NCBI RefSeq assembly: GCF_010499265.1
Contig: NZ_JAAGSC010000031.1
Coordinates: 248,001-312,000, forward strand
Source: Wenzhouxiangella limi
Lineage (GTDB): Bacteria > Pseudomonadota > Gammaproteobacteria > Xanthomonadales > Wenzhouxiangellaceae
Reading direction: 5' to 3'
Length of the DNA: 64,000 nt
Shown: positions 16,122 to 39,994 of the stretch, piece by piece
Layout of the letters: the number at the start of each line of letters is the position of its first letter
Position numbering within the stretch: position 1 is the stretch's first letter
The notes under the pieces: generated by a model
Told to the model about the DNA's origin: nothing
The model's input: only the letters and a program-made list of their open reading frames with translations
The model's database searches: none
Made by a program: the position numbers and the translations under genes

Positions 16122-19432
<3,311 letters not shown>

Positions 19433-21820: not shown

Positions 21821-22420
21821 ATGCGCTGGATGATCTGCGCTCTGCTGTTCTTGCCCGGCCTGGTTCTGGCCGACGCCAAAGACGAACTCGATCGCTTCGC
21901 CGACGGGCTCGATACGCTTTCGGGGTCGTTCCGGCAGATCATCTTCGACGACGACGGCTTCGCCCTCGAGGAATCTGAAGGAAGGCTGTATTACCAGGCA
22001 CCGGATCGGTTCCGCTGGGACTACTCAGATCCTTTTCCTCAGCAACTGGTCGCCGACGGCCAGCGCCTGTGGCATTTCGATGAATCGCTGGAGCAGGTCA
22101 CCGTGCGCGATCAGCCGGCGGCGGGGGAGTCCGCCCTGCTGGTCCTGACCCGGCCGGAAATGCTGGAGCGCTTTTATCGTATCGAGCCGACGGAATCCGC
22201 CGATGAGCTGCATTTCGTTCCACTCGACGACGAGTCCGGCTTCGAACGCGCGAGCCTGCGCTTCGTCGACGGGGTGCCGGTCACGCTGGAATTCACTGAC
22301 CGGCTGGTTGGGCAGATGACCCTGGTGGAACTCCGGGCACTGGAACGAAACCCCGATCTGGACGATGACCTTTTTCGCTTCGAGCCGCCGCCTGGAGTAG
22401 ACGTACTCGAGGGTTACTGA
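21821..22420 (+). CDS. lolA: Outer-membrane lipoprotein carrier protein LolA
   Basis: LolA ferries lipoproteins released by LolCDE through the periplasm to LolB. The 199-residue precursor has a signal peptide ending near LPGLVLA (about residue 18), then the conserved DTLSGSFRQIIFDDDGF, EGRLYYQAPDRFRWDY and PQQLVADGQRLWHFDESLEQ stretches. AGGAG precedes the ATG at good spacing. The last seven bases overlap the convergent DUF4124 gene. Confidence 0.94.
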   Translation: MRWMICALLFLPGLVLADAKDELDRFADGLDTLSGSFRQIIFDDDGFALEESEGRLYYQAPDRFRWDYSDPFPQQLVADGQRLWHFDESLEQVTVRDQPAAGESALLVLTRPEMLERFYRIEPTESADELHFVPLDDESGFERASLRFVDGVPVTLEFTDRLVGQMTLVELRALERNPDLDDDLFRFEPPPGVDVLEGY

Positions 22421-22941
22421 GCGTCCGGGTCTCTCGCCGAGGCGTCGCGGCGCCGGGTCGTGCCGGGAAACGGACCGCTCAAAGCCGAAAAACGATCGTC
22501 GTCGGGGCTGGGTTCACGCCCGCCAGGCGGTTGCGGAGTCGGTGGCTCGATCGGCTGCGGTGGCCAGTAGGGCACCTGTAGCAACGGCTGCTGCGGGCTG
22601 CTTTGGGGTGGTGGTTGCTCAGCCCTTTCGGTTGCCGGCTCCGCGGACCGGCGCTGCTGTTGCAGGCGCTCGCGTCGTTGATCGATAAACGCCCGGTTCT
22701 GCTCGATGCGCTCGGCCAGGCGCTTCGGTGCATCGACCACGCTGAGGTTGTTGCCGGCCCGGTAGACTGCCGCCTGTTCGTCGCAGGGGCGGTCGCTGAA
22801 GGCCACGCTGCCGTCTTCGCGTTCGCAGCGGTAAATCGTTTCATTGGCCGTCGCCGGTGCCAGCATGAGGCCGGCGAACAGGGCGACCAGCAGCCGGGCT
22901 GCGCGTCTTCCGCTTCGAGATGAGTGCGCTCTGGTTTTCAT
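22414..22941 (-). CDS. DUF4124 domain-containing exported protein
   Basis: A 175-residue protein of unknown function. A signal peptide spans about residues 12-33 (RRAARLLVALFAGLMLAPA), followed by a short DUF4124 module (IYRCEREDGSVAFSDRPC), a coiled, glutamine- and arginine-rich stretch and a proline-rich tail (PPQSSPQQP and PPQPIEPPTPQPPGG). The two cysteines of the module may form a disulfide. The ATG at 22941 shares a base with the upstream stop (TGATG), so it is coupled to the 2OG-oxygenase gene and is the last gene of the long minus-strand run. Confidence 0.72.
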   Translation of the reverse strand: MKTRAHSSRSGRRAARLLVALFAGLMLAPATANETIYRCEREDGSVAFSDRPCDEQAAVYRAGNNLSVVDAPKRLAERIEQNRAFIDQRRERLQQQRRSAEPATERAEQPPPQSSPQQPLLQVPYWPPQPIEPPTPQPPGGREPSPDDDRFSALSGPFPGTTRRRDASARDPDAQ

Positions 22942-23663
22942 CAGGCGCCCTCGGGGCGGTGGAAAAGACGGCGCAGCCTCGCTTTGAGATTGTCGGCGTT
23001 GACAACCACGATAAACACCTTGCGCAGCCGTCCTTCCGGGCAATCCAGGGCCTGCACGCCGTGCCAGGAGTTGCCCTGGCGTTGGAAAAGCAGGGAGCGG
23101 TTGCCCATGGCATCGGCCACCCAGGCGCGCTCGAAGTCGCCGAAATCTGGCGCGCTGCTGCGGGAGAAACGACCGCCGTCGTCAAGGATGACGGTCTGCC
23201 CGCCCCAGTCCCGTTCCCATTCGTCTTCGGTATTGAAATAGAAGATATGGGAGCCGAGCTTGCGCTTGGCGTCGCAGTGGGGTGAAACGGATGCGCCACG
23301 CGGCGCGTAGTGCCAGTGATAGCTCAGCGTGAATCGTCGGGTCGCAAAAAGACGGGCCAGCCAGTCCTGGTAGGCCGGGCCGTTGAGCTCGGCAATAAAC
23401 TGGTGCCAGACCGGGTGCAGGTCGAGATCCGGGTGATATTCCAGCGCATAGCGGTCGTGCGGTTTTTGTCCGTGGGCGCGCTTACGGCCAAAGCTGGCCT
23501 TCATCTGGCCGGTTTCCGGGAGGTTTTGTCGCAGCAGCTCGAAACCCCGATCGGTCAGCAGCCCCTCCGGATTGAGCCAGGGGTATGGGTCTGCCTGGCG
23601 GAAGGTGGCGGTTTCGATGGCGGTCAGTCGGTCGCGATCCAGGATCGTCTGTTCAGTACTCAT
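22941..23663 (-). CDS. 2-oxoglutarate/Fe(II)-dependent oxygenase
   Basis: A 240-residue protein with a prolyl-4-hydroxylase-like 2OG oxygenase fold. The iron ligands are seen as HCD in SVSPHCDAKRK and as the distal histidine in QGNSWHGVQALDC. The 2OG-binding basic residue is likely in the following GRLRKVFIVVV. The start (MSTEQTILDRDRL) lies inside the end of the glycosyltransferase-like fusion gene. Because it ends the probable sphingolipid run, hydroxylation of a lipid chain is one possibility; this is inference, and protein or small-molecule hydroxylation is equally open. Confidence 0.75.
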   Translation of the reverse strand: MSTEQTILDRDRLTAIETATFRQADPYPWLNPEGLLTDRGFELLRQNLPETGQMKASFGRKRAHGQKPHDRYALEYHPDLDLHPVWHQFIAELNGPAYQDWLARLFATRRFTLSYHWHYAPRGASVSPHCDAKRKLGSHIFYFNTEDEWERDWGGQTVILDDGGRFSRSSAPDFGDFERAWVADAMGNRSLLFQRQGNSWHGVQALDCPEGRLRKVFIVVVNADNLKARLRRLFHRPEGA

Positions 23664-25908
23664 GGATTTTCGATTTCGTTTCGATGGCACGGGTGTCAGC
23701 AAGATCGATCGCCAGGCGTTCAGCGGCACGCACGGTGATCTGGTCGAGCTCCGAATTCGGGGTGGGCCGGAAAGTCGCGGGAATGGGCTCGCCGAACGGT
23801 GCGGCCATGCCGGCTTCGTGCAGCGCGCGATGCAGGGCCTGGATATCGCGCGGCGGCAGGACCCAGCCGCGCTCAAGCGCGCGCGCGCACAGGTAGGTCT
23901 GCCCCTGCTGCGGCCGGATGCTGCCGCGCCGGTTGAATCGCGGTCGCACGGCGCGCTCGGTGATCTCCCGGCTCAGCCGCGTCCAGAGGCCGGCCGAGCG
24001 CTGCTCCATCGGCCAGATCAGGAACCCTCTGCCGCGACTGGCCGCGTCGGCAAGCATGGATTCGCTTTCCCCGGTGACGATCAATGCATCGGCCTCCACC
24101 AGGGCCAGGTGGTACGGATTTTCCGGATCGTCTGGGCGCCAGCGGTAAAAGGCATCATCGGCGCCAAGCCCGGCCTGCAGCGCCTCCGCGACAGGCGCGC
24201 TGCGGCGACTGCCCACGACCAGCAGCCGGGCCTGTTGTTTCTGCGCAAAGGCCGAGACCTCGTGGGCCAGATTTCTGGCCTGGGCGTCGGTGAGCTGGTG
24301 CGATCGCGAACTGCCTCCGACCAGCAGCGCGATCTTGCGGGGGGCGTTCAGCCAGGCCGACCAGCGCGCCGGCCTGTCGGTTGCATCTACCCGTCCGGCG
24401 TTGAGCGGAAGCAGGGTCGTGAGGCGGTTGGGATGCGGTGGCAGGCCGAAGTGACGGCACTGCACGATGACGCTGCCGATCGCCTCGGCCGGGCCGGCCT
24501 TGCGTCCGCTCAGGATCAGTCGCAGCTGCGGGTCCCGGCGCTGCAGCAGCCGTGCGATCCGGCAGGGCAGCCAGCCGCCGGCCAACACGATACGGGCATC
24601 GCGTCCGATTTCGGGCAGAGGTGATCGACCCAACAGACGGGCCAGGACAAAGCCCGCTTCGCTGCAGCCGATGACGGTCTCGGTCAGCGGTCGGCCCGTC
24701 CTGGCGGCCAGGCTGCGGCCCAACGCACGGGCCTGGTTGGCGTGACCGGGCTTGCGATGAGTCAGGACCACGATCGATCCGTCCAGGACCGGACCGCCCT
24801 CGTGGCGCTCATGCCGACCCCACGGGTGCCGGTAATCCAGCGACCAGCGGGTTCCGGGATGGAGGCGTCCTGCGGCCGCGAACTGCTGCAGCCAGAACCA
24901 GAGACTGCGTCGTGTCCGGCCCCTGGCGTGTCGGCGCGGCTCGCGAATGCTGACCGCCAGCCGGTCGGTCATGTCAAACAGCCGCTCCAGCACCCAGGGC
25001 ACATCCTGGTCGGGCAGCCGCTCGAACAGTTGGTCGATTTTCAGGTTCGACGGCGTGCTGTTCGGGCGTTGGGGGCCGAGCAGCGCGCGCAGACTCGCAT
25101 CCGGCAGCCCGGCAACGGCCCTGGACCAGGCCGGAGAGGGTTGTGCCGCCGTGAACGGCAGAAAGCGGTGTCGGTCGGCCTCGGCCTCGAGCTCGGGCCA
25201 GAGCGGATCGGTGGGATTGTCGAAATAGACGAATTCGGCAGGAAAGGGCCGCCAGGGCTGGGTATGGAGGGTGGTGAAATGCACAAGATGCGAGCGGTCC
25301 GGGTGATACTCGCTGTCGCGCGCATTCCAGCCGCCGTCCAGGTGCCCCCACAGACCGGCCTTGCGGGCACGCGCCTCGAGCGCCTTGCGTCCGAGACGGC
25401 GAACGTCGTGCGCGTTCCAGGCCTCGCGCATGCGCCGGCAATCGATCAGCATCACCGAGGTATCGCGGTCGTTGATCGACAAAAACCCGGCCCCGTCCAT
25501 TGGCGTATCGAACAGCTCGGCGGGATCCTTGAGGTAAATCTGGTCGGCATCGTTGTAGATGGCGCGGCCGGTGAAGTCGCAGAATTCGGGGATGGCGAAG
25601 CGGTAATTGGTGAATCCAGTCAGCCAGAAGCGCCGCCGAAACCCACTGAGATCTCGCATAAGGTATATTTCATAAATCCTTGACGGATCACGATGTTTCT
25701 CCACTGACCAGATGAAGACGCGCTCGGCCCGGAACTGGCCACGCTCGGTACCGAGATAGATTCGCACCGGGGGTTTGCTTGAAGGCCGTGTTCCGTTGCG
25801 CACGCCCAGCACGATCCGATCGGGAGCGCGGCGGTGCGCGGGTGGCCGCTCTGGATGAAAGCCAGCGGGGCGAAGTCCGCGCGCGATTCTCTGGATCAGC
25901 AGGGGCAT
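23653..25908 (-). CDS. Two-domain glycosyltransferase-like protein with C-terminal ELM1-family domain
   Basis: A 751-residue protein with two recognisable parts. Residues about 45-250 look like a GT-A-type transferase (GT8-like): VRIYLGTERGQ at the start, the putative metal-binding motif YNDADQIYL near 117, and a later FVYFDNPTDP. Residues about 350-700 match the ELM1 family (PF06258), a GT-B-like fold: VVLTHRKPGHANQARALGR, ALLVGGSSRSHQL and VTGESESMLADAASRG are its typical motifs. Bacterial ELM1-family proteins occur without a proven reaction. Position in the sphingolipid run suggests sugar transfer to the lipid, which is inference. The fusion, if not an artefact of gene calling, is unusual; no internal stop or obvious second start separates the parts. 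Confidence 0.75.
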   Translation of the reverse strand: MPLLIQRIARGLRPAGFHPERPPAHRRAPDRIVLGVRNGTRPSSKPPVRIYLGTERGQFRAERVFIWSVEKHRDPSRIYEIYLMRDLSGFRRRFWLTGFTNYRFAIPEFCDFTGRAIYNDADQIYLKDPAELFDTPMDGAGFLSINDRDTSVMLIDCRRMREAWNAHDVRRLGRKALEARARKAGLWGHLDGGWNARDSEYHPDRSHLVHFTTLHTQPWRPFPAEFVYFDNPTDPLWPELEAEADRHRFLPFTAAQPSPAWSRAVAGLPDASLRALLGPQRPNSTPSNLKIDQLFERLPDQDVPWVLERLFDMTDRLAVSIREPRRHARGRTRRSLWFWLQQFAAAGRLHPGTRWSLDYRHPWGRHERHEGGPVLDGSIVVLTHRKPGHANQARALGRSLAARTGRPLTETVIGCSEAGFVLARLLGRSPLPEIGRDARIVLAGGWLPCRIARLLQRRDPQLRLILSGRKAGPAEAIGSVIVQCRHFGLPPHPNRLTTLLPLNAGRVDATDRPARWSAWLNAPRKIALLVGGSSRSHQLTDAQARNLAHEVSAFAQKQQARLLVVGSRRSAPVAEALQAGLGADDAFYRWRPDDPENPYHLALVEADALIVTGESESMLADAASRGRGFLIWPMEQRSAGLWTRLSREITERAVRPRFNRRGSIRPQQGQTYLCARALERGWVLPPRDIQALHRALHEAGMAAPFGEPIPATFRPTPNSELDQITVRAAERLAIDLADTRAIETKSKIHEY

Positions 25909-25921
25909 GAGGGGTCTCTGT

Positions 25922-26833
25922 TCAGGTGCAGATCGGCGGGCCGAAAGGGTAGCGGGACCAGCGGCGCTGATGCCAGGTCCACCATTGCGGATGTTCCAGA
26001 ATATGCGCTTCCATGATACCGGCCAGTATTTTAACCTCGTGCGCGATTGGACGCGACGGATCCAGGTGCAGCGGCTTTGCGAGCCGGAATTGCCAGCCCT
26101 GCTCAGCGCCCGTCAGAAGCAGCGGGATCAGGGGCGCGCCGGTTCTGCGCGACAGTTCCGCCGGCCCCGGCGGCATGTCAAGGTCCTTGCCCAGAAAGCG
26201 CGCCGGTACGCCGCCTGTCCTGCTGGCCTGGTCCATCAGGATGAACACGATTCCGCCGTTTTTCAGCGCCCGTAGCATGCGACGAAAACCGGCTGCGGCC
26301 GGCTGCGCGGGAATGGCCTGGAGCCCGTTTCTGGCGATGCCGCGGGCAAAAAACGTTGGCCGGATTTTTTTTGACTCGCGGTAGACCACGCTCACCGGAT
26401 ATCCGGCCCGGGCCAGGTGGATGGCCAGGGCAATGCCGTTGCCCATGTGCATACCCAGCAGCACCGCGCCGCGACCCTGCGCGAGCGATCGATCCAGCCG
26501 CTGGATCTGATCCAGCGAGCACATTTCGGCGACCTGGCCGGGTTTGAGCGCGCCGCTGTAGGCAGCGAGGACTTCCAGGATGGCCCGGTCGTTGACTCGG
26601 TAGGCTTCGTGCAGATCGGTTTGCAGTCTGTCGTCAGTCCGGCGATCGGGCATCAGCGTTCCCATTTGTTTAAGCAGGTTTCGGCGCTTGCGCCTGCCGA
26701 GCCGATAATGCAGGGTGCCGAGCAGGTAACCGACAAGGCGCACCGTCTCCGGGCCGCCCAGGGCCGAGACCCGGGCCGTGGCCGTGAGCAGATGGAAGCC
26801 GCCGCGCCGCAGCCAGCGCCGGATCTTCAGCAT
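25922..26833 (-). CDS. LpxL/HtrB-like lysophospholipid acyltransferase family protein
   Basis: A 303-residue membrane-associated acyltransferase related to the late lipid A acyltransferases. The segment GAVLLGMHMGNGIALAIH (about 123-140) aligns with the HX4(D/E) catalytic motif, but the acidic residue appears to be isoleucine (H-MGNG-I). The later FILMDQASRTGGVPARFLG and the C-terminal HPQWWTWHQRRW are typical of the family. It overlaps the ABC exporter gene by seven bases. A role in acylating the locus product is plausible, but the altered motif could mean a different chemistry or a non-catalytic role. Confidence 0.78.
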   Translation of the reverse strand: MLKIRRWLRRGGFHLLTATARVSALGGPETVRLVGYLLGTLHYRLGRRKRRNLLKQMGTLMPDRRTDDRLQTDLHEAYRVNDRAILEVLAAYSGALKPGQVAEMCSLDQIQRLDRSLAQGRGAVLLGMHMGNGIALAIHLARAGYPVSVVYRESKKIRPTFFARGIARNGLQAIPAQPAAAGFRRMLRALKNGGIVFILMDQASRTGGVPARFLGKDLDMPPGPAELSRRTGAPLIPLLLTGAEQGWQFRLAKPLHLDPSRPIAHEVKILAGIMEAHILEHPQWWTWHQRRWSRYPFGPPICT

Positions 26834-28533
26834 TTCCGAATGCGGCCCTCCTGCACCCTTATCACCGCGTCGGCGGCCTCGACCAGCCCCTCGTCATGGC
26901 TGACGGCAAGCATGGTCAAGCGCCCCTTGAGCTGGCCGATGGTGGCGATAACGGCGGCCTCCGACTCGTGGTCAAGATTGCTGGTGGCCTCATCGAGGAT
27001 CAGCAGGCTAGGGCGGTGTATCAGGGCCCTGGCAATGGCCAGTCGCTGGCGCTGGCCGCCGGACAGCCGGCCACCGCGCTCGCCCAGCAGCGTTTCCATG
27101 CCGTCGGGCAGGGTGCTGATGAACCCCCAGGCATCGGCCATTTTCAGGGCCCGCTCGGCATCATCCGGTCCGAGGTCGGGATCGCCCAGGGTCAGGTTGC
27201 GAATCACGGAGTCGTTGATCAGCAGCGGATCCTGGGGGACGTAGCCGATCATGCGCCGCCAGCGTCGATGGTCGATTTCCTGCAGATCGACCCCGTCGAT
27301 CAGGATGCGGCCCGAATCCGGATGGAGCAGGCCGGCGACGAGGTCGATCAGGGTCGTCTTGCCGGAGCCCGAGGGCCCCGTCAGTACCGTCAGGTGGCCC
27401 GACCGGATGTCCAGGTCTATCCCGCTGAGGACCTCTTTGGCGTCGTACTTGAATCCGACCCGCTCGAACCGGATCTCGTCGTTCAGCGCGGGCGTCCGGA
27501 AACCCCGCGGCGGTTCGGCTTCCCTGCGCGCCTCGTCGATGGTGCCGGCCAGCGACCAATAGGCGCTTTCGCTGATGCTCATATGCTGCCAGGCGCGCTG
27601 ACCCTTGGCCAGATGGTTGACCGAGCGCGCGATCAGGAAAATCATGATCATCACTGTTGCCATGGGCATGTTCATCTGGACCAGGAAAAAGAAGAACCCG
27701 ATCCCGACCAGGATCGCCAGCATGGGTTCCTGCAGCGCAATCAGCGCCGCCTTTGCAAAGACCTGGTTCTTCAGGGCTTTTTTCAGTTCGCGGGTCTGGT
27801 TGGAAAGCATGCTGTCGACATGATCCTCGCGGCCCATGGCCTTGAGCGGTTTGACGGCGCCCAGTTGATCGGTCATGACCGACAGCAGCGATTTCAACAG
27901 TCCGGTCTGGCGTCTTCCTGCACCGCCAGCCATACGCACCAGAAAGTGCAGCAACCCGAGCAGGAGCCCGCCGAAGACCAGGGCGATCAGGCTCGCCTGC
28001 CATGAGATCAGCAGCGCCAGGCCGGCATAGACAACGGCGTTGATGATCTGGGTGGCCATGACGGCACCGTGATAGAACCCTTCGGAGGCGCGATTGGCTT
28101 CCGTGGCCATGGCGTTGGAAAGTTTGCCCACCGGCTGCGACAGGTAATATCGCCAGCGACTTTCCATGACCGAGCGCACCAGGCTCAGACGCAGATCGGT
28201 GGCCACATGGGCAACCGTGTAGCCGACCTGGCGGTTGGCCAGCAGCACGATTACTGCCTTGAGCGCAATCATGAGCACGCCCAGCGTCAGCAGGGTCACC
28301 AGCGTAGGATCCAGACCCAGGCGATCGACGACATCCAGCGCGACCTGCTCCGGCATCGAAGGGTCTTCCTGCTCCCCGGTGGCCAGGTTGAGCATGGACA
28401 GCAGCAGCGATAGCCCCAGTCCGTCGACAAGACCGGCGACGACCAGTGCTGCCAGTGCCAGCGAGGTCCGCCCCGGATATGCTTTGGCGAAGGTCCACAA
28501 CATGCGCAGGGCGCCCTGCCCGGATGCGCTCAT
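26827..28533 (-). CDS. ABC exporter, membrane domain fused to ATPase (MsbA-like half transporter)
   Basis: A 568-residue half transporter distinct from the msbA gene at 3.4-5.2 kb. The membrane domain covers about residues 1-325. The ATPase has Walker A GPSGSGKTTLIDL (about 375), signature LSGGQRQRLAIARALIH and Walker B LLILDEATSNLD. The switch histidine is in LAVSHDEGL. The ATG at 28533 overlaps the upstream stop by four bases; codons further upstream are in frame but antiparallel to real sequence of the neighbour and rejected. Position inside the lipid run suggests it flips the locus's lipid across the inner membrane; the substrate is inference. Confidence 0.88.
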   Translation of the reverse strand: MSASGQGALRMLWTFAKAYPGRTSLALAALVVAGLVDGLGLSLLLSMLNLATGEQEDPSMPEQVALDVVDRLGLDPTLVTLLTLGVLMIALKAVIVLLANRQVGYTVAHVATDLRLSLVRSVMESRWRYYLSQPVGKLSNAMATEANRASEGFYHGAVMATQIINAVVYAGLALLISWQASLIALVFGGLLLGLLHFLVRMAGGAGRRQTGLLKSLLSVMTDQLGAVKPLKAMGREDHVDSMLSNQTRELKKALKNQVFAKAALIALQEPMLAILVGIGFFFFLVQMNMPMATVMIMIFLIARSVNHLAKGQRAWQHMSISESAYWSLAGTIDEARREAEPPRGFRTPALNDEIRFERVGFKYDAKEVLSGIDLDIRSGHLTVLTGPSGSGKTTLIDLVAGLLHPDSGRILIDGVDLQEIDHRRWRRMIGYVPQDPLLINDSVIRNLTLGDPDLGPDDAERALKMADAWGFISTLPDGMETLLGERGGRLSGGQRQRLAIARALIHRPSLLILDEATSNLDHESEAAVIATIGQLKGRLTMLAVSHDEGLVEAADAVIRVQEGRIRKC

Positions 28534-29462
28534 CGGAACCCTCCCTGGCGCCACATCCGCCAGGCCATTCCCCATGCTGCCAGCCGCGGATACCTGCGCA
28601 TGCGTTCGGTCGGTTCGATGCGAACGCCGCTGTGGCGTTCGACCTTCCAGCTGATGTAGTCGATGCCGTTGCTGAAGGTGCCAGCGGCCTTGAACAGGCG
28701 GGCCAGGTTGAAGGCTTTTCCGGACACCCGCCGCAACTGCCACTGCAGCCGAGTCAACAAACGCTGCCGGTTGCTCGTGGTTCGGAAGAACAGCGCGTCT
28801 TCTTCGCTCAGTCCGCAGCACCGCTCGTCGGCAAGCGCCTGGGTGATTCTTTCCCAGAACACCGGGTCGGCAGCGATCAGGCGTCGGGCATTGTCGGATG
28901 ATTCCGGTCGAAGTTCACAGCGGTAGGTCGCAGTCAGTGCCCGCTGCCAGAAGCCGGTGGCTGCGACGGGCGAGGTCAGCAGCGGCGCGATTCGCCGGCA
29001 GTACTGCCGTGCCGCCGTCGCCCGGATTTCGGCAAGTTGTTCGGGCAGGGCCTGATCAGCGCGGGCATACACCAGTCGGCACGGTTGGGTGAATCGCGCC
29101 CAGAAGTAGTGATCGCTACGGCTCCGGCAGCGCCTGGCGAACTGCTCCAGGGTGACCAGCGCGTACTTGCAGCGCACCGTGCGTTTTTTGCTTTCAGCCT
29201 GAAGGTAGTACACGTTCGGTGGCAGCAGGCGATTGAAAAGCGCGGATGGATGCAGACCGTGGACGGTGCGATAACGCCGCACCAGCACCAGCAGGTCAAC
29301 AAGGCCGTCGTGGACATCCTGATCACGCCGGCAGGATCCGTAGAGCACGATCGCCAGCAGCTCTTCGCCATAGCGCGCTCGCAGGGCAGACAGCAGCCCG
29401 TCCAGCCCCTGGGGCGGTGGCTGTGAAAGATCTTCGAGCATGGCCGAGGTAACCGCGTTCAT
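28530..29462 (-). CDS. Nucleotidyltransferase-fold protein of unknown activity
   Basis: A 310-residue protein. Residues about 35-60 resemble the polymerase-beta-type nucleotidyltransferase signature: VLYGSCRRDQDVHDG then LVDLLVLV. The usual D-x-D metal pair reads L-V-D, so one ligand seems to be missing from the expected place. The remainder is basic and predicted helical, with a hydrophobic region absent. Four-base overlaps tie it to the lipid kinase upstream and the ABC exporter downstream. Transfer of a nucleotide to make an activated head group is a possible role; I cannot support more. Confidence 0.6.
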   Translation of the reverse strand: MNAVTSAMLEDLSQPPPQGLDGLLSALRARYGEELLAIVLYGSCRRDQDVHDGLVDLLVLVRRYRTVHGLHPSALFNRLLPPNVYYLQAESKKRTVRCKYALVTLEQFARRCRSRSDHYFWARFTQPCRLVYARADQALPEQLAEIRATAARQYCRRIAPLLTSPVAATGFWQRALTATYRCELRPESSDNARRLIAADPVFWERITQALADERCCGLSEEDALFFRTTSNRQRLLTRLQWQLRRVSGKAFNLARLFKAAGTFSNGIDYISWKVERHSGVRIEPTERMRRYPRLAAWGMAWRMWRQGGFR

Positions 29463-30475: not shown

Positions 30476-30512
30476 TCAGGTCAGGAGGGCAAAGGTTTTG
30501 CCGGTGGCAGGC

Positions 30513-31583: not shown

Positions 31584-31627
31584 GCTGACATTATAAGCGG
31601 CCGGCGCTAAGGCTCCTGCTATGACGC

Positions 31628-33078: not shown

Positions 33079-33992
33079 CCGGGAAGTTCGGTCAGCGCCG
33101 ATGCCAACTGCCGTTTCGGCCGCCAGCCTGATGACGCAAGCGCCACATTATCACCACAAACCCAGTCAGGATGTGTGAGTTCGCGCACCTTGCCGGGCGT
33201 GAGCAGAGGCTGGTGGCCCGTCAGATAGCTGATGCCCAGATTGGCGGTTGCCATCAGCGACAGCGCGAAGCGCGGCAGCCTGAGTGTGCGTGTCGGCCGG
33301 CCGCGAAGCGAGCCGGCAAGCCTGGCAAGCTCGGACCAGGTGTAGCCCGCACGGTGACCGTCGTCCAGACAGGCGGTGCGGCGCAGGGGCCAGGGACGGT
33401 CGATGAGGTGGACAATGGCATCGCAGAGATCGTCGACGTGCAGCAGCGAAAAGCGAGCCCGCGCAGGTCCAGTCTGCACCAGCCAGCCGCTCGCCAGCGC
33501 TCGCCACAGCGGCGCCAGTGCCGGGTCGGCGGGGCCGTAGATCGCCGGCGGACGGAGAATCAGCCAGTCCAGATGGCTGCTTTCAACAATCTGTTCGGCC
33601 TGGCGTTTGCTGCGGGCGTAATGAGAGATTTGCGGCAGCCGGGCCGCCAGGCTGGAAATGTGGATCAGGCGACAGCCGGGATGGGTCTGCTCCATCGCTT
33701 CGATCAACTTGCGCGTACCGACCGCGTTGACCCGCTCGAAGTCGCGTTGACGGCGGCCGGCAATGGCCGCTGCCAGATGGATGAGGCAGTCGCTGCCCTT
33801 GACCAGTTCCGCCAGGGCCCCGGGCGTGGCCAGGTCTCCGATAATTTCCGTGACGTCTTCGTGTTGCAGGCAGCGTCCGGGCGAACGCGAAAGCGCACGG
33901 ACGCGGTATCCCGACGCGAGCAGTCTTGCCACCAGAACCCTGCCGACAAAGCCGCTGGCGCCGGTCAGCGCAACGCTTTGGCGGGAACTCAC
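33060..33992 (-). CDS. NAD(P)-dependent epimerase/reductase, candidate ceramide reductase (CerR-like)
   Basis: An extended short-chain dehydrogenase of about 310 residues. The nucleotide-binding motif TGASGFVGRVLVARLLASG lies at about residues 9-27, IHISSLAAR carries the catalytic serine region, and HYARSKRQAE carries Tyr-x3-Lys (about 125-129). ILRPPAIYGPAD follows, as in 3-beta-hydroxysteroid-like epimerases. In Caulobacter an epimerase-type enzyme (CerR) reduces the 3-oxo group of oxidised ceramide; the matching position next to spt and acp supports that role here. The GTG at 33992 is my preferred start; a longer version would overlap the ligase gene by over 170 bases. Confidence 0.77.
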   Translation of the reverse strand: MSSRQSVALTGASGFVGRVLVARLLASGYRVRALSRSPGRCLQHEDVTEIIGDLATPGALAELVKGSDCLIHLAAAIAGRRQRDFERVNAVGTRKLIEAMEQTHPGCRLIHISSLAARLPQISHYARSKRQAEQIVESSHLDWLILRPPAIYGPADPALAPLWRALASGWLVQTGPARARFSLLHVDDLCDAIVHLIDRPWPLRRTACLDDGHRAGYTWSELARLAGSLRGRPTRTLRLPRFALSLMATANLGISYLTGHQPLLTPGKVRELTHPDWVCGDNVALASSGWRPKRQLASALTELPGWSTRS

Positions 33993-34008
33993 GACCGGCG
34001 CGGGTAAA

Positions 34009-35802
34009 TCAGTTTCCTGAGGGTTCAGCCGCCTCGGTGTGCGGCGTGCGTTGAACCAGTTCCCGCGGCAGGATCGGACGATCCTGAAGATCGTTGCGCT
34101 TGAGGAAGTCCAGCCGGGCGCCGCTGCGCGAGAGCTTGCCGGAAGAGGTGCGCGGCAGCGTATGCAGCGGCACCAGTTCAATCAGGCAGGCGATTCCGAA
34201 CTCGCTCTGGATGCGCTGCTTGAGGCGTTCAACCAGGGCGGCCTGGCGGAAACTGTCCTGCTCGCGACACTGCACCACGAGGACGGCCACTTCGCTGCCG
34301 TCTTCTCCGGGAATGGCAAAAGCCGAGGCGTCCTCGGCGCGGACTTCCGGCTGCTGCTCGGCCACGTACTCGAGATCCTGCGGCCAGATGTTGCGGCCGT
34401 TGATGATCAGCAGATCCTTGGCCCGGCCGGTGATGAAAAGCGCATCACCCGCGCGGTAGCCGACATCGCCCGTATTCAGCCAGCCCTTTGAATCAAGCGC
34501 CGCGGCGGTTGCGTCGGCATTGTTGGCATAGCCGCTCATGACGCTTTTGCCGCGCAGGTGGATGACGCCGCATTCGCGCTCCGCAGCCAGCTGGCCGTCG
34601 CCTTTGCGGATTTCCACCTCGAAGCCGGGCAGCGGACGCCCGCAGTTGACGAATTCAGTCACCCGCCGGTCGGCGGCTGCCGGGTTCGCTGGCTCGGCGA
34701 TGCGCTCACCGGCCAGGCGTTCGGCGTCCAGGCGGTCGGTCTCCAGGCCCTGACCCAGCGGCGCGAAGCTCACCGCCAGCGAGCATTCGGCCATGCCGTA
34801 GCAGGGCAGGAAAGCCGAGCGATCGAAGCCCGCCGGCTGCAGCGCATCGGCGAAACCCTGCAGCCACGCCGCGCGGATCATCTCGGCGCCAACCCCGGCC
34901 ACGCGCCAGGCGCTGAGGTCAAACTTCTCCAGGTCGCTGGGGCGGAGTCGACGTGCGCACAGGGCATAACCGAAAGGCGGGCTGAAGGAAATGGTTGAAC
35001 GATTGCGCGACATCAGGTTCAGCCACAGCCGCGGCCGCATGGCGAACTCCCTGGTGCCGAGATAGTCCACCGAAAGCTGGGAAATCACCGGGCCCAGGAT
35101 CAGCCCGACAAGGCCCATGTCGTGGTAGTACGGCAGCCACGACATGAAGCGATCGCCGCGCCGGATTTGTACCCCGAACTGCAGGATGCCGGCAAGGTTA
35201 TCGAGCACGGCTTCCTGGGTGATCATGGTCCCGCGCGGAAACCGGGTGCTGCCAGAGGTGTACTGAAGGTAGGCCAGTTCATCGGGTCGCGGTGGTGGCG
35301 GCAATGATGCGGCCGGCTCCAGGCGCATGAAAGCATCGAGCGTGCCAGACAACGCCAGTCCCCGTCCCACAGACGCTTCTTCGAGAAACCCGGCAAAATT
35401 TTCCGGCGCAAACGCCGCGCGCGCCTGGCAGTCTTCCAGCATCGCGCGCAGATGCGCCACGAACGCTTCGCGACCGCCCAGGTGAACGGCAGCAGGCAGC
35501 GGTACCGGCACCAGGCCGGCATACTGGCAGGCAAAAAAGAACACCGGAAAATCAGGATGGGTGTCAGCGACCAGGGCGATTCGACTGCCGCGCTCGAGCC
35601 CCATGCCATGCAGCCGGGCCGCCAGATCCTGGGCCTTGTGCCGAAGTTCGGTGTAGGTCAGGGCGCACTGCAGTTTGCCGCGGCCATCATAGAAATTGCA
35701 CCCGGTTGCGCCGCGGGAGGCGTAATCAAGCGCCTCGGCGAGGCTGCGGTAACCGGATGTCTTGAGGGGTAGGGAGTTGTCTGTCGGGGTCGGCTGCGGC
35801 AT
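34009..35802 (-). CDS. Fatty acyl-AMP ligase / acyl-ACP synthetase (AasR-like)
   Basis: A 597-residue adenylate-forming enzyme. AYLQYTSGSTRFPRGTMIT (about 180) is the AMP/phosphate loop, CYGMAECSLAV (about 325) the adenine-binding motif, and TGRAKDLLIINGRNIWPQD (about 460) the hinge. The C-terminal catalytic-lysine motif is RTSSGKLSRSGARLDFL. The overall pattern is that of stand-alone fatty acyl-AMP ligases that load carrier proteins rather than CoA. With acp, spt and the reductase downstream it matches the acyl-ACP synthetase of the Caulobacter sphingolipid genes. ATG at 35802; the Shine-Dalgarno is weak. Confidence 0.86.
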   Translation of the reverse strand: MPQPTPTDNSLPLKTSGYRSLAEALDYASRGATGCNFYDGRGKLQCALTYTELRHKAQDLAARLHGMGLERGSRIALVADTHPDFPVFFFACQYAGLVPVPLPAAVHLGGREAFVAHLRAMLEDCQARAAFAPENFAGFLEEASVGRGLALSGTLDAFMRLEPAASLPPPPRPDELAYLQYTSGSTRFPRGTMITQEAVLDNLAGILQFGVQIRRGDRFMSWLPYYHDMGLVGLILGPVISQLSVDYLGTREFAMRPRLWLNLMSRNRSTISFSPPFGYALCARRLRPSDLEKFDLSAWRVAGVGAEMIRAAWLQGFADALQPAGFDRSAFLPCYGMAECSLAVSFAPLGQGLETDRLDAERLAGERIAEPANPAAADRRVTEFVNCGRPLPGFEVEIRKGDGQLAAERECGVIHLRGKSVMSGYANNADATAAALDSKGWLNTGDVGYRAGDALFITGRAKDLLIINGRNIWPQDLEYVAEQQPEVRAEDASAFAIPGEDGSEVAVLVVQCREQDSFRQAALVERLKQRIQSEFGIACLIELVPLHTLPRTSSGKLSRSGARLDFLKRNDLQDRPILPRELVQRTPHTEAAEPSGN

Positions 35803-35872
35803 CAAAACTTGGGTTTCCCTTCTTTTTAGTCAAGGCCCGCACGGCACCTGCTGGGGAACGGACGAATCGGTC

Positions 35873-35878
35873 ATTATA
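35873..35878 (-). promoter_or_regulatory. Perfect -10 box facing the acyl-AMP ligase operon
   Basis: Read on the minus strand this is TATAAT, about 70 bases before the ligase start and in the divergent gap of the two halves of the locus. The -35 region at usual spacing (TTTTCT) is poor, so strength or an activator requirement cannot be judged. Confidence 0.4.
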
Positions 35879-35933
35879 GAGCGCCGTCACGGCAAAGAAA
35901 ACATTCGGTCCAAATCCGTTACATTCGTCAACC

Positions 35934-37064
35934 ATGTCGCCCGTTATCGTTTCTGCCGTCGACCATCGTCGTGATTGGGAAGATCTTTGGGGTCTTTCCC
36001 GCAAGCTTTATGCCGATGATCCGGCCTGGGTTGAGCCCCTGCGCGCTGAGCGCAAGACCTTGTGGTCGGACGAAAATCCCTGGTTTGAGCACGCCCATGG
36101 ACAGCTTTTCCTGGCCCGCCGGGCCGGACAGGTGGTCGGATCGATCAGCGCTCAGGTCGACCGTCTGCAGCCGCTGGAACAAGGCCGCCGGGTCGGCTAT
36201 TTCGGGCAGTTCGAGTGCACCAACGAAGCCGAAGTGGCCTCTGTTTTGTTCGAGACGGCATCGCAGTGGCTGCGGGAGCAGGGCTGCACGTGGATGCGCG
36301 GCCCCTATGATCTGGGCATCAACCAGTCCTGCGGTCTGCTCGTGTCGGGCTACGACACCCCCCCGATGATCCTCATGGGGCATGCGCGACCGTACTATCG
36401 CGAACTGCTGGAGGGCGCCGGACTGGTTCGCGAAATGGACCTGCTTGCCTATCGCGTTGCGCCGGATTTTGTCGCCCCTGCGGCCATGCGCCGCCTGCTC
36501 GAGCGCAGCCGGCGCCGGCTCTCGTTTCGCCCGCTGAACATGGATTCTTATGGCCAGGAGGTGGAACTGTTGCGGGAATTGTTCAACGATGCCTGGGCCG
36601 ACAACTGGGGATTTGTGCCGCTGACGCGAGCCGAGTTTGCCCACACCGGTCGCGAGATCCGCCGGATTCTGAACCCGGATCATGCCTGCGTTGCCGAGAT
36701 CGACGGCCAGGCGGCCGGTTTTCTCATCGCCTTGCCCAACATCAACGAGCTGATCCGTGATCTGGGTGGACGGCTTTTTCCGACCGGCTGGATCCGGCTG
36801 CTCTGGCGCCTGAAGCGGCGCGGTGCAAGCACAGCCAGGGTGCCCTTGATGGGTGTATCCAGGAAGCATCAGCGCGGACCGCTGGGAGCAGCCATCAGCT
36901 TTGGCATGATCGACAACGTGCGCCATGCGCTTCACCGAGACGGCATTCGCCATGTCGAAATGTCGTGGATCCTGGAAACCAACCAGGGCATGAACTCTCT
37001 GATCCACGCCATGGGCGGCGATCTCTACAAGCGGTATCGGATGTATGGCCGCGCGCTGGACTGA
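35934..37064 (+). CDS. GNAT-superfamily N-acyltransferase, candidate bacterial ceramide synthase (BcerS-like)
   Basis: A 376-residue GNAT-related protein. Typical stretches are YFGQFECTNEAEVASVLFE (about 86-104), GPYDLGINQSCGLLV and a second conserved block VEMSWILETNQGMNSLIHAMGG near the C-terminus (start near residue 340, shown here only to VEMSWILETNQG). The Caulobacter ceramide synthase BcerS belongs to this superfamily and acylates 3-oxosphinganine. No other N-acyltransferase candidate is present in the locus, and the divergent position beside the AasR-like ligase gene supports the role. No clear Shine-Dalgarno precedes the ATG. Confidence 0.72.
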   Translation: MSPVIVSAVDHRRDWEDLWGLSRKLYADDPAWVEPLRAERKTLWSDENPWFEHAHGQLFLARRAGQVVGSISAQVDRLQPLEQGRRVGYFGQFECTNEAEVASVLFETASQWLREQGCTWMRGPYDLGINQSCGLLVSGYDTPPMILMGHARPYYRELLEGAGLVREMDLLAYRVAPDFVAPAAMRRLLERSRRRLSFRPLNMDSYGQEVELLRELFNDAWADNWGFVPLTRAEFAHTGREIRRILNPDHACVAEIDGQAAGFLIALPNINELIRDLGGRLFPTGWIRLLWRLKRRGASTARVPLMGVSRKHQRGPLGAAISFGMIDNVRHALHRDGIRHVEMSWILETNQGMNSLIHAMGGDLYKRYRMYGRALD

Positions 37065-37869
37065 TTCGGAGCGGGCGGTGGACCGGATCGTTCTGGCCGG
37101 GGACCGGCGCACGGATGACCCGCTGGCGGTTGCCGCTGGCGTGGCCGGCAAGGCTCTGGTGCCGATCGCCGGCCGAGCCATGCTCACGCGCGTGGTCGCA
37201 ACCCTGACGAACTGGCGAACAAAAGGGCGCTTGATCGTTGTCGCGCCCGACAGCGCGCGCTATCGGCAAGCCGCACGGGAAGGGGCGGCAGGAGCGGGCG
37301 CGGAGCTGGTCTGGGTCGAGCCGGCCGCCTCGCTCGCCGGCAGTGTGCGGCAGGCCCTGGCCACCAGCAGATCGCGCCGCTGCCTGTTGCTCACGGCCGA
37401 TCATGTGTTGATGGACACCGCCTGGCTTGAGCATCTGCTCGGGGCATGTCCGATCGGAACGGCGGATCTCGCGGTCGGGCTGACCGACTGGCATGAGGTC
37501 ATGGCGCGTTTTCCTGGCAGCCGCCGCACGCGCTATCGATTCAGCAACGGCTCGAGCTGCGGAACCAACCTGTTCTTGGTCAACAACCGCGCCGGCGTGG
37601 AGCGAATCCTGGATCAGTGGCAGCAAGTCGAGCAGCAGCGCAAGAAACCGTGGCGCATCGTGTCGATGCTGGGGTGGCGCAATCTGAGTCGATATCTGGC
37701 CGGCCGGTTGAGCGTCGAGGGGGCCTTTTCGGCGCTGTCAGCGCGGCTCGGCGCTGAGGTGCGGCCGGTCCACGTGCCCGACCCGCTGGCCGCCGTGGAT
37801 GTCGACAGCGCGGCTGACCTGGCTCTTGTCGAGCAGGTGCTGGCTGAAAAGGCTCGGTCGCAATGCTGA
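37045..37869 (+). CDS. MobA-like NTP-transferase domain protein
   Basis: A protein of up to 274 residues with a nucleotidyltransferase (MobA-like, NTP_transf_3) fold. DRIVLAGDRRTDDP replaces the usual glycine-rich LAGGxSxRMG loop and is followed by AGKALVPIAGRAMLTRVV, the usual K-x-L-x-P-x-x-G-x-x-M strand. LLTADHVLMD is the metal-binding region. Two starts are possible: ATG at 37045, inside the end of the GNAT gene, or GTG at 37078 with GGAG six bases upstream, which I think more natural. It ends in a seven-base overlap with lptF. NTP-transferase genes also occur in the Caulobacter ceramide-phosphoglycerate locus; making an activated head group is inference. Confidence 0.7.
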   Translation: MAARWTDSERAVDRIVLAGDRRTDDPLAVAAGVAGKALVPIAGRAMLTRVVATLTNWRTKGRLIVVAPDSARYRQAAREGAAGAGAELVWVEPAASLAGSVRQALATSRSRRCLLLTADHVLMDTAWLEHLLGACPIGTADLAVGLTDWHEVMARFPGSRRTRYRFSNGSSCGTNLFLVNNRAGVERILDQWQQVEQQRKKPWRIVSMLGWRNLSRYLAGRLSVEGAFSALSARLGAEVRPVHVPDPLAAVDVDSAADLALVEQVLAEKARSQC

Positions 37870-38927
37870 TCGAGCGCTACCTGGCCTGCGAAATGCTGCG
37901 CCCGGTGATTGGAATCTTTGTGTTTCTGACCGTCGTCGTGCTGGTTTTCTATGCCAGTCAGTTGCTGGGCAGGGCGGCCCTGGAAGGGCTGCCCATGGGC
38001 ATTGTCCTGCGCATGGCCGGTCTGCGCCTTGGATTGTTTCTGGATGTGCTGGTGCCGATCTCTCTATTGCTGGGCACGGTGATCGGTCTGGGCAGGCTGC
38101 AGGCGGCCCACGAGATCATCGCGCTGGCCGCAGTCGGTGGCGGGCGACGGCGCGTGGTCAAGGCGCTGCTGGTTGCCGTGATCCTGATGATTGTGGTCGT
38201 TGCCGCCGCATCGATGCTGTTCCGGCCCTGGGCGTATGCCACGCTGTATGAGCTGGAGCGCGAAATGGCAGCGGAACTGAACCTGGACCGGGTCGAGCCC
38301 GGGCGCTTCCAGGTCGGCGACGAGCAGTGGCTGATCTATGCCCAGGGCCGCTCCGAAGCCGGCCTGGAAGACGTCATGGTGCGCCAGCGCGCCGAGCAGT
38401 TCAGCGGCCTGATTCGCGCTCAGCGTTTGATCCAGGAATCCGCCGGGGATGGTGTTGTCCGTCTCGTGTTCGAGGGCGATGTGCACAGCTACACCATGGC
38501 GTCGGAAGGCGAACCCGATATCGTTGCCCGTTTTGATCGTTTCGCCATGCTGCTTCGGGTACGGGAACCGCCGGGTCGCGAGCGCCTGCGCAGGGCCATG
38601 TCAACGCGCCGTCTGCTGGACGATCCAACCCCCACCGAGATGGCCGAATTGCAATGGCGCCTCGTTGGCCCGGTCACCGTGCTGGTGCTGGGCCTGGCCG
38701 GTCTGGCCCTGAGCCGGATCAATCCGCGCAGCGGTCAGTCCGCCCGGGTGCTTAGCGCAACCCTGGTGGGGACGCTGTATTTCAGCGCCATGGGCGTGGT
38801 CATCAACTGGGTGGAACAAGCCCGATTTCCGTTCGTTCCCGGAGGTTTTGCCGTGCCCCTGGTGGTGTTGATGGTACTGGGCGTTCGCTACTGGCTGGTG
38901 CAGCGTGGGCCGGGGCCGCCGCTGTGA
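37863..38927 (+). CDS. lptF: LPS export permease LptF
   Basis: LptF pairs with LptG and the ATPase LptB to pull lipopolysaccharide from the inner membrane into the Lpt bridge. The 354-residue protein starts MLIERYLACEMLRPV, has three N-terminal helices, a periplasmic beta-jellyroll (about 130-245) and three C-terminal helices beginning ELQWRLVGPVTVLVLGLAGL with SRINPRSGQSARVL, as in other LptF proteins. Its start overlaps the NTP-transferase gene, so its translation is tied to the probable sphingolipid genes rather than to pepA as in E. coli. It may be the cell's only LptF or a second copy; the window cannot tell. Confidence 0.88.
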   Translation: MLIERYLACEMLRPVIGIFVFLTVVVLVFYASQLLGRAALEGLPMGIVLRMAGLRLGLFLDVLVPISLLLGTVIGLGRLQAAHEIIALAAVGGGRRRVVKALLVAVILMIVVVAAASMLFRPWAYATLYELEREMAAELNLDRVEPGRFQVGDEQWLIYAQGRSEAGLEDVMVRQRAEQFSGLIRAQRLIQESAGDGVVRLVFEGDVHSYTMASEGEPDIVARFDRFAMLLRVREPPGRERLRRAMSTRRLLDDPTPTEMAELQWRLVGPVTVLVLGLAGLALSRINPRSGQSARVLSATLVGTLYFSAMGVVINWVEQARFPFVPGGFAVPLVVLMVLGVRYWLVQRGPGPPL

Positions 38928-39994
38928 GAATCCTGCGCGAATACCTCGTCGGCCGTCTGCTTGCGGCCTATCTGATTACGGCGGCCGCGCTCGGCGCGCT
39001 GTTGTGGCTGCTGGAGATGCTGGAAGGTCTGGAAGACGGCCTGGGCAGCGTCGCTGATCTGGCCGGGGTCGCGTTCTCGGCCGCGCGCGTTTTGCCCGAG
39101 GGGATCATCGACCTGTTGCCGGTGATCACCGTCCTGGCGACCGCCTCGGCCATCGGGGCACTGCAGGTGCGCAGCGAACTCACGGTGATGCGGGTGGCCG
39201 GTGTCTCGCTGTGGCGGCTGACGGGGATCGCACTGATGCCCGGTCTTCTCGTCGCCGGTCTGGCGCTGGCCAGTCTGCAGTGGCTGACACCCCTGATGCA
39301 GGAAGGCCCGGAACGGTTGATGGGCGCATCACTCGGTGAAAGCGGTCTATGGCATCCGTCACACGGTCTCTGGCTGCGCAGCGGAGAGGAATTTCTCAAC
39401 GTCCAGGACCTTCGCATGGGGCGCATACCGACCGGCATCAACCTGTATCGATTCGATCCGGGCGGGGGGCTTTCGGTTCACATCGAAGCCGAGACCGCCG
39501 TGATTCGCAGCGATGGCGACTGGACGCTGGAATCGGTCACGGTTCGGGACTACCGGGATGAGGCTCAATCGCCGCTTCGCCACGCCGAGCAGCAGCGCTG
39601 GGACTCTTTTTTGTCGGCGCGCCAGCTGGAGCTGCTGCTCAGGCCGCCTGCCAGCTTGCCGTTGACGGACCTTTGGCAATACGTCGATGGCCTGAAAGCG
39701 CGCGACCAGGATTCGGCCGAATATGAAATGGTGCTGTGGCGACGTCTGGCGCTGCCGCTGGCCTGTCTGGGCATGGTGCTGGCGGCCATGGCGACAGCGG
39801 CGGTGCCGCTGAAAAGCCGGGCGGTCAGTCTGCGTCTGGTGGCGGCCCTCACCCTTGGGCTCGGTTTCGAACTGCTGGCGGAACTGACTGCGTATCTGGG
39901 GCTGGTGCTGGGCTGGCCGGTGATCGCGGTGGCGCTCGGTCCGGCGGTTGTGCTGGCGGGGTTTTCCTGGTGGCTGTTGTCAAAAGCCCGCTGA
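38924..39994 (+). CDS. lptG: LPS export permease LptG
   Basis: LptG is the second permease subunit of the LptB2FG extractor. The 356-residue protein starts at GTG in a four-base overlap with lptF. It begins RILREYLVGRLLAAYLITA, carries the periplasmic jellyroll in the middle (about 130-260) and ends with helices around RLALPLACLGMVLAAMATAAV. The lptF-lptG order is standard; the genes upstream are not. It ends 40 bases before the convergent HiPIP gene. Confidence 0.88.
   Translation: MRILREYLVGRLLAAYLITAAALGALLWLLEMLEGLEDGLGSVADLAGVAFSAARVLPEGIIDLLPVITVLATASAIGALQVRSELTVMRVAGVSLWRLTGIALMPGLLVAGLALASLQWLTPLMQEGPERLMGASLGESGLWHPSHGLWLRSGEEFLNVQDLRMGRIPTGINLYRFDPGGGLSVHIEAETAVIRSDGDWTLESVTVRDYRDEAQSPLRHAEQQRWDSFLSARQLELLLRPPASLPLTDLWQYVDGLKARDQDSAEYEMVLWRRLALPLACLGMVLAAMATAAVPLKSRAVSLRLVAALTLGLGFELLAELTAYLGLVLGWPVIAVALGPAVVLAGFSWWLLSKAR

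Follow-up and report, generated by a model that had tools for sequence, protein, structure and literature searches.

A GT8-ELM1 glycosyltransferase fusion and a second LptF/LptG pair in a probable sphingolipid synthesis, tailoring and export locus of Wenzhouxiangella limi

Introduction

What lipid would be made by a locus that places candidate ceramide genes beside tailoring enzymes, an exporter and a pair of Lpt genes, and how would that lipid reach the outer membrane? The question is raised by a locus of Wenzhouxiangella limi that lies in the window, by which is meant the whole stretch of 64,000 nucleotides (nt) analyzed here (contig NZ_JAAGSC010000031.1, positions 248,001 to 312,000). The window genome (G000) comprises 3.35 Mb in 44 contigs. 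The route of bacterial sphingolipids to the outer membrane is given as unknown, or its transporters as unidentified, in the consulted parts of PMC11087976 and PMC11324152. The data below make it likely that the locus encodes a dedicated pathway for the synthesis, modification, flipping and export of a sphingolipid, and an acidic, sugar-bearing, perhaps three-chain ceramide is proposed as its product.

Results

Gene layout

The strongly supported locus spans positions 22941 to 39994 and is divergent and tightly packed; all of the genes named in an earlier sequence-only reading of this DNA were found to be open and intact. From 35802 to 22941 the minus strand carries eleven genes, spaced by overlaps or by gaps of at most 44 nt, in the order aasR, cerR, acpR, spt, desaturase, lipid kinase, Tam41-like nucleotidyltransferase, ATP-binding cassette (ABC) exporter, acyltransferase, GT8-ELM1 fusion and 2-oxoglutarate (2OG)-Fe(II) oxygenase. 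Divergent from these, the plus strand carries the overlapping genes cerS, a CofC-like nucleotidyltransferase, lptF and lptG. The sequence-only reading had described a synthesis-modification-flipping-export set; homology, synteny, phyletic profiles and trees all lend support to this description, the product being inferred.

The GT8-ELM1 fusion

The gene at 23653 to 25908 (minus strand) is predicted to encode a fusion glycosyltransferase with an N-terminal GT8-like GT-A half and a C-terminal ELM1/KdoT-like GT-B half (PF06258, 89.6 bits; cut-off, 27). The fusion had no useful sequence match in the PDB. When its structural model (predicted local distance difference test [pLDDT], 85.5) was compared by Foldseek, the GT8-like half matched 3tzt with a template modeling (TM) score by target of 0.61 to 0.63 and LgtC with 0.48. 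The DxD motif of the GT8 half is present in 23 of 23 aligned fusions. In the ELM1 half, the window protein carries SRRS, and the second arginine of the SRR[T/S] motif is Arg in 20 of the 23 aligned fusions and Lys in 1. The ELM1 family includes KdoT, a transferase using cytidine monophosphate (CMP)-3-deoxy-D-manno-oct-2-ulosonic acid (Kdo) that has been shown in vitro and for which the second SRRT arginine matters, according to the consulted parts of PMC12856342; earlier KdoT genetics are covered in part of PMC10936431.

The occurrence of the fusion was compared with that of spt in two sets of genomes. In the family sample (43 genomes, 31 with an Spt match at 1e-60 and 12 without), a fusion match was found in 24 genomes, all of them spt-positive. 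Twenty-three of these matches have at least 46% identity (those of G017 and G018 being partial), and the remaining one, in G011, matches the ELM1 half at 26%. In the class sample of 274 genomes (spt at 1e-90, ELM1 at 1e-8), spt was found in 16, ELM1 in 19 and both in 10, giving a hypergeometric p of 1e-9 with kinship ignored. Both halves occurred in one frame in five class genomes, the window genome included, and all five are spt-positive. In G162 and G289 the fusion and spt lie on different contigs.

Candidate sugar donors

By analogy with KdoT, the ELM1 half probably adds an ulosonic acid, here Kdo, from a CMP donor. A possible source of CMP-Kdo is a gene outside the locus at 6212 to 6847 (plus strand; G000:C23:254212-254847), which is kdsB-like by family only and is the sole CTP_transf_3 match in the window genome (PF02348, 164.4 bits). 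One WaaA-family match lies elsewhere in this genome, so that Kdo transfer to lipopolysaccharide (LPS) need not involve the fusion.

A second type of donor is suggested by the loci of relatives, where a five-gene cassette adjoins spt and comprises a sulfotransferase, a TIGR04396 surface-carbohydrate protein, a MocA-type oxidoreductase, a CMP-sialate-synthetase-like protein and a NeuB-like protein (L119:4878-10824; also L121, L122, L124 and L126). In L119, L121 and L122 it sits between spt and the tailoring module described below. NeuB with at least 76% identity was found in 13 of the 43 family genomes, 12 of them spt-positive and the 13th being G021, while three further family genomes have NeuB matches at 25 to 30%. 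The NeuB of this cassette had no match at 1e-20 in the window genome, and the cassette was thus rejected as the window's own sugar source; it is for this reason that CMP-Kdo would be the donor of the window fusion.

TIGR04396-type, MocA, NeuB and CMP-sugar synthetase genes also stand in line with the fusion in two Nitrospirota metagenome-assembled genomes (MAGs), where L050:11301-19468 and L085:5450-14384 carry aasR-cerR-acpR-spt-fusion-TIGR04396-MocA-NeuB-CMP-synthetase on one strand. These two loci, in which an ELM1 fusion is linked to CMP-ulosonate supply, give the best indication of the donor of the ELM1 half. The fusion also stands directly behind spt in the Nitrospirota locus L061, with a TIGR04396-type gene and without a NeuB match, and L047 has neither a fusion nor a NeuB match, so the cassette is not general in Nitrospirota. 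In the deltaproteobacterial L078 the cassette lies behind spt without a fusion match. Two points are new here, namely, that ELM1 includes the CMP-Kdo transferase KdoT and that two Nitrospirota loci align the fusion with a NeuB/CMP-sugar cassette. PMC11765627 was considered as a paper linking NeuB to sphingolipids and was rejected, since in the part consulted the match to NeuB was an author name.

The tailoring module

The fusion belongs to a module of seven genes (desaturase, kinase, nucleotidyltransferase, ABC exporter, acyltransferase, fusion and oxygenase) whose order is kept in relatives. All seven genes were found in 10 of 18 module loci and in L132. In the other module loci a desaturase or oxygenase match is missing or the module is cut by contig ends, and six module loci of the g2 genus have no oxygenase match. 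Module and spt are on one contig yet about 0.32 Mb apart in G014 and about 0.25 Mb apart in G004, and in further family genomes they lie on different contigs. Only G014 and G004 prove their separation, since in several of the others (G012 and G042) spt is near a contig end. It is new here that the tailoring block keeps its gene order, sometimes far from spt, and that in the two sets searched the fusion occurs only in spt-bearing genomes.

The membrane fatty acid desaturase/hydroxylase (30513 to 31583, minus strand, as are the following five genes; PF00487, 87.2 bits) has visible histidine boxes and no useful sequence match in the PDB. The lipid kinase at 29459 to 30475 (PF00781 [DAGK_cat], 48.2 bits) is a candidate ceramide kinase. 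The adjacent 310-residue protein (28530 to 29462) matched no Pfam family at an E value of 0.01, and was assigned by fold: the top PDB folds for its model (pLDDT, 90.7) were Tam41 cytidine diphosphate (CDP)-diacylglycerol (DAG) synthases, at an E value of 7e-7 and a TM score of about 0.5. The kinase and the Tam41-like fold, taken together, suggest the formation of CDP-ceramide. The exporter (26827 to 28533; PF00005 and PF00664) is of the ABCB/MsbA/HepA type and is a candidate sphingolipid flippase. Its best NCBIfam models were HepA (289.5 bits) and MsbA (247.3 bits), both far under their cut-offs.

The acyltransferase (25922 to 26833) belongs to the PatA/LpxL superfamily (PF03279, 86.7 bits; cut-off, 22.3). 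Its profile scored 64 bits with PatA structures versus 47 bits with lipid A lauroyl acyltransferase; no NCBIfam cut-off was passed, the best model being the PatA-type NF005919 (83.1 bits; cut-off, 209). His129 and Asp201 are invariant in 20 aligned rows, and Asp201 aligns with a PatA glutamate that is presumably catalytic. The 2OG-Fe(II) oxygenase (22941 to 23663; PF13640, 27.2 bits; cut-off, 27) is a putative lipid or chain hydroxylase and is 58 to 60% identical to its counterparts in two Salinisphaera spt loci. On the plus strand, the CofC/MobA-like nucleotidyltransferase at 37045 to 37869 (PF12804, 48.4 bits; F420_cofC, 28.7 bits, below cut-off) is CC_1153-like.

The sequence-only reading had begun the locus at 22414. 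The segment that this adds, 22414 to 22941, is a minus-strand gene for a DUF4124 protein (PF13511, 23.1 bits; cut-off, 22). It shares 1 nt with the stop codon of the oxygenase gene, and homologues were found in 15 of the 18 module loci, so that it may belong to the locus as the last gene of the operon.

These assignments also admit an ordinary Caulobacter-type locus, in which ceramide phosphoglycerate would be made and the glycosyltransferase, acyltransferase and oxygenase would act on LPS or other envelope lipids. The DAGK_cat kinase, the Tam41-like fold and the CofC-like enzyme match CC_1160, CC_1161 and CC_1153, respectively, a comparison that rests on the consulted parts of PMC11324152 and was made by family, not by sequence; for CC_1161 a CDP-DAG-synthase domain is reported there. 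However, no CC_1159-like CDP-alcohol phosphotransferase (PF01066) was found in the block. Such an enzyme hidden elsewhere in the genome was also considered and was rejected, as PF01066 counts do not follow spt in the family. Furthermore, none of the 12 spt-negative relatives has the fusion, lptFG matches numbering exactly two in 9 of them, and the fusion stands directly behind spt in the three Nitrospirota loci named above. An ordinary Caulobacter-type locus is therefore deemed unlikely, and a glycosylated, further acylated ceramide is the preferred reading of the module.

The second LptF/LptG pair

The last two genes of the plus strand were identified as lptF2 (37863 to 38927; PF03739, 169.6 bits; TIGR04407, 232.2 bits; cut-off, 230) and lptG2 (38924 to 39994; PF03739, 189.1 bits; TIGR04408, 250.4 bits; cut-off, 240), and the trees support both calls. 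That they are the genome's only pair, misread as sphingolipid linked, was rejected, since a further lptFG pair lies on contig C26. The pair can be told apart from the housekeeping pair, and it is inherited together with spt.

LptF/LptG copies were counted across the family sample as domain matches, fragments included. At least four matches were found in 27 of 31 spt-positive genomes versus 1 of 12 spt-negative genomes, and of the other 11 spt-negative genomes 9 have two matches and 2 have none. When only genomes of at least 90% completeness were counted, these figures became 19 of 20 and 0 of 5. The single spt-negative genome with four matches, G021, is 84% complete, and its NeuB shares 85% identity with the NeuB linked to spt in L119. 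Its missing spt is thus read as a probable assembly gap and not as proof. In the trees, the spt-linked LptF (26 rows) and LptG (25 rows), from Wenzhouxiangellaceae, Escherichia coli, Pseudomonas, Nitrospirota and others, were separated from the housekeeping copies (13 and 15 rows, from Wenzhouxiangellaceae plus one E. coli pair) with Shimodaira-Hasegawa-like approximate likelihood ratio test values of 99 and 98. The E. coli housekeeping LptF formed a long branch in the LptF tree, for which the program warned of long branches meeting. A joint LptF/LptG tree from which the E. coli housekeeping pair was absent gave the same picture, the spt-linked groups having support of 91/84 and 85/92. What is new here is that extra lptFG copies follow spt across the 43 family genomes and that the spt-linked LptF and LptG separate from the housekeeping copies.

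LptF2G2 could instead serve LPS or another glycolipid, with their adjacency to spt being historical. This would be in keeping with the equivalog cut-offs for LptF and LptG, which are passed, if narrowly, and with LptC (PF06835), which gave exactly one match per genome for the window genome and for the 39 family genomes with any, and none for the other 4; no full second Lpt machine was seen, and the PF06835 search of the 43 family genomes yielded no second LptC of the kind reported for Caulobacter. Against it stand the copy number, which follows spt, and the tree, in which the housekeeping copies are set apart from a group formed by the spt-linked copies of Wenzhouxiangellaceae, E. coli, Pseudomonas and Nitrospirota. 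LPS service is accordingly judged quite improbable, and a role in sphingolipid export is preferred. An LptF/LptG pair that follows spt and has its own branch makes sphingolipid export to the outer membrane directly testable.

The ceramide core

The gene spt, at 31628 to 32812 (minus strand), encodes a protein assigned as a proteobacterial serine palmitoyltransferase by a curated cut-off (NF047599, 568.7 bits; cut-off, 500) and by PDB matches, where serine palmitoyltransferases reached up to 404 bits and KBL 194. The E. coli spt product scored 599.2 bits with the same model. In the tree, which contained no row named BioF or Kbl, the window Spt groups with 14 other Spt proteins (proteobacterial, one from Nitrospirota and one from an unclassified bacterium) with support of 100/100, apart from relatives in Bacteroidota, Priestia and Rubrobacter and from the genome's own nearest paralogue (33 to 34% identity). 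The nearest named Spt proteins are those of Wenzhouxiangella MAGs (73 to 76% identity), which bears out the apparent gammaproteobacterial host proposed from the sequence. That the Spt-like protein makes another product, as a BioF/Kbl-like enzyme or an autoinducer synthase, and that no sphingolipid is made, is very improbable, since the shared superfamily and 315.9 bits with the bioF model are outweighed by a bioF cut-off that is missed, a serine palmitoyltransferase cut-off that is passed, the PDB ranking, the tree (without rows of those two names) and the finding that each of the five ceramide genes has a candidate here. In the family member G010, an additional Spt-like match of greater distance (38%) was observed at G010:C34:2453-3493, inside an open frame of 1,215 residues.

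The other core genes on the minus strand are acpR (32809 to 33078; PF00550, 48.1 bits), for a specialized acyl carrier protein (ACP), directly before spt; cerR (33060 to 33992; PF01370, 93.7 bits), for a candidate NAD-dependent epimerase-type ceramide reductase; and aasR (34009 to 35802), for a fatty acyl-AMP ligase (FAAL)/acyl-ACP synthetase (NF006624, 763.5 bits; cut-off, 600; PDB 3pbk, 536 bits). On the plus strand, cerS (bCerS; 35934 to 37064; PF00583, 23.5 bits; cut-off, 20.7) encodes a candidate GNAT-fold N-acyltransferase with 40% identity to E. coli yghO, which is given as an aca orthologue in the consulted part of PMC9386255. CerR matched 20 curated models, none to its cut-off, and was placed by epimerase family and syntenic position; CerS had no NCBIfam match. 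The CerR and CerS calls are thus based on family and synteny, together with a distant identity to the E. coli locus. The sequence-only reading had matched all five ceramide synthesis genes, and they hold up as candidates, with Spt and AasR passing curated cut-offs. It had also described four core genes as overlapping. This applies to spt/acpR (4 nt) and acpR/cerR (19 nt), and to cerR/aasR only if cerR starts at the TTG at 34181, a 16-nt gap being left by the likely GTG start at 33992. The CerR query used in the searches, 33060 to 34031, began upstream of that GTG.

Synteny was examined in 80 named spt loci, 49 of them at least 15 kb long. Homologues were found for acpR in 76, aasR in 67, cerR in 62, cerS in 40, the CofC-like gene in 33, lptF or lptG in 27 and the ABC exporter in 24. 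Upstream of the locus, a FemAB-like/GNAT protein was observed at 16122 to 17273 (PF04339, 426 bits).

Discussion

Proposed pathway

From the family memberships, gene linkage, co-inheritance, tree position of LptF2G2 and predicted folds observed above, the following substrates, products and order of steps are inferred. AasR would load a fatty acid on AcpR, and Spt would condense the acyl chain with serine. N-acylation by CerS and reduction by CerR, in either order, would then yield ceramide, whose chains may be altered by the desaturase and the 2OG oxygenase. The lipid kinase would form ceramide-1-phosphate, and the Tam41-like enzyme would prepare this for a head group by activation, probably to CDP-ceramide. 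One or two sugars would be added by the GT8-ELM1 fusion, the ELM1 half probably contributing an ulosonic acid (Kdo) from a CMP donor, and a further acyl chain by the PatA/LpxL-like enzyme. The ABC exporter would flip the product, and LptF2G2, sharing the single LptC, would pass it to the outer membrane route.

Several points weigh against this pathway. The family genomes are related, and their counts are not independent. A strong fusion match is missing in 8 of the 31 spt-positive family genomes, five of them 88 to 99% complete. Of the 16 spt genomes of the class sample, 6 lack an ELM1 match, and 9 of its 19 ELM1 genomes lack spt. The C-terminal half of the fusion matches GT-B enzymes (such as MurG and BshA) only loosely, with TM scores by target of 0.35 to 0.46. 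In three aligned relatives of the g2 sister genus (L195, L198 and L200) the ELM1 half is degraded, with SRRT and GESESM lost and the GT8 DxD kept, from which it follows that the ELM1 half is not always needed. In all 20 aligned rows of the acyltransferase, V, I or L stands in place of the acid of HX4(D/E), the motif of LpxL, LpxM and PatA acyltransferases. The Pfam scores of the oxygenase (27.2 bits) and CerS (23.5 bits) are marginal, and the lack of a PF01066 enzyme in the block, with a family copy number that does not follow spt, counts here as well.

The spt-tied GT8-ELM1 fusion and the acyltransferase predict a class of acidic glyco-sphingolipids, and the fusion suggests a role for ELM1 beyond LPS. 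A further, tentative idea is that the logistics of lipid A have been rebuilt on ceramide. In such a scheme the KdoT-like ELM1-GT8 protein might add an acidic ulosonic acid and a hexose to ceramide or ceramide phosphate, with a third acyl chain from the PatA/LpxL-like enzyme, MsbA-like flipping and LptF2G2 export. If so, the linked NeuB and CMP-sugar synthetase of relatives and of the two Nitrospirota loci would supply a sialic-acid-like donor, and the lipids would be bacterial analogues of gangliosides with an exchangeable acidic head. Among the titles listed from the open-licence literature, none was on bacterial Kdo-sphingolipids, and a search for Wenzhouxiangella with sphingolipid gave single mentions of either word; both absences are weak evidence.

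Comparison with known systems

The window ELM1 domain shares with the Acinetobacter KdoT the ELM1 family, the SRR[T/S] arginine motif and a putative GT-B fold, by family and motif only. KdoT acts on Kdo2-lipid IVA according to the consulted parts of PMC12856342, whereas the window domain is fused to GT8 in a ceramide locus. With the Nitrospirota loci L050 and L085 the window shares aasR-cerR-acpR-spt and a full-length GT8-ELM1 fusion in line; there, unlike in the window genome, a NeuB cassette follows.

The E. coli spt locus beside yghO has in common with the window FAAL, epimerase, ACP, spt, the GNAT gene yghO and a second lptF and lptG. Its Spt is 51% identical to that of the window, and it shows no match to the tailoring-block genes. 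In the one genome examined (L010:9439-17224), the locus was observed to carry its own second lptFG pair. A DNA match to the inner part of spt (about 70% identity over 208 bases) was found in 3,007 of 5,426 complete E. coli genomes, and all 10 of the matches listed are annotated spt. The occurrence of spt in a gammaproteobacterium is therefore ordinary, and it is by the genes of its tailoring module that the window locus stands out.

The Pseudomonas plasmid locus of pPNP1 shares the core, a cerS-like match, lptFG, the lipid kinase, the Tam41-like gene, the nucleotidyltransferase, the ABC exporter, the ELM1 fusion (780 residues there) and an oxygenase (of the Asp/Asn beta-hydroxylase type there). 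It adds a CDP-alcohol transferase and a phosphocholine cytidylyltransferase, and has an IS5 element within the cluster; neither a desaturase match nor an LpxL-like one was obtained. In the same plasmid record there is also a class 1 integrase gene, along with sul1. Sphingolipid loci were observed on plasmids of Diaphorobacter, two Pseudomonas and Roseomonas (L009, L011/L018, L016 and L017), two of them IncP typed.

Among the closest known schemes is that of Caulobacter, for which the consulted parts of PMC11324152 describe, in the region CC_1168-CC_1152, six modification genes, a flippase candidate and a second LptC/F/G; many of the orthologues in Azotobacter vinelandii and Pseudomonas luteola lie in contiguous clusters. 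Common to both loci, with cerR, cerS and the ceramide kinase as candidates in the window, are aasR, cerR, acpR, spt and cerS, the last in a separate unit, as well as the ceramide kinase, the CDP-DAG-synthase-like and CofC-like enzymes, a second LptF/LptG and a candidate flippase. Counterparts of CC_1152 and CC_1158 are absent from the block, no genome-wide search having been made, and in contrast to Caulobacter the window genome has no second LptC match. The sequence-only reading had called the set larger than the Caulobacter core; the published region already has modification, flippase-candidate and Lpt genes, and what sets the window block apart is its tailoring content, with the desaturase, PatA/LpxL-like acyltransferase, GT8-ELM1 fusion and 2OG oxygenase as additions. 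Most of the scheme has thus been published for Caulobacter and relatives (PMC11324152, PMC9386255 and PMC11087976), and the departure is on the head-group side, where by sequence the block has no CC_1159-type transferase and carries predicted sugar- and acyl-transferring enzymes.

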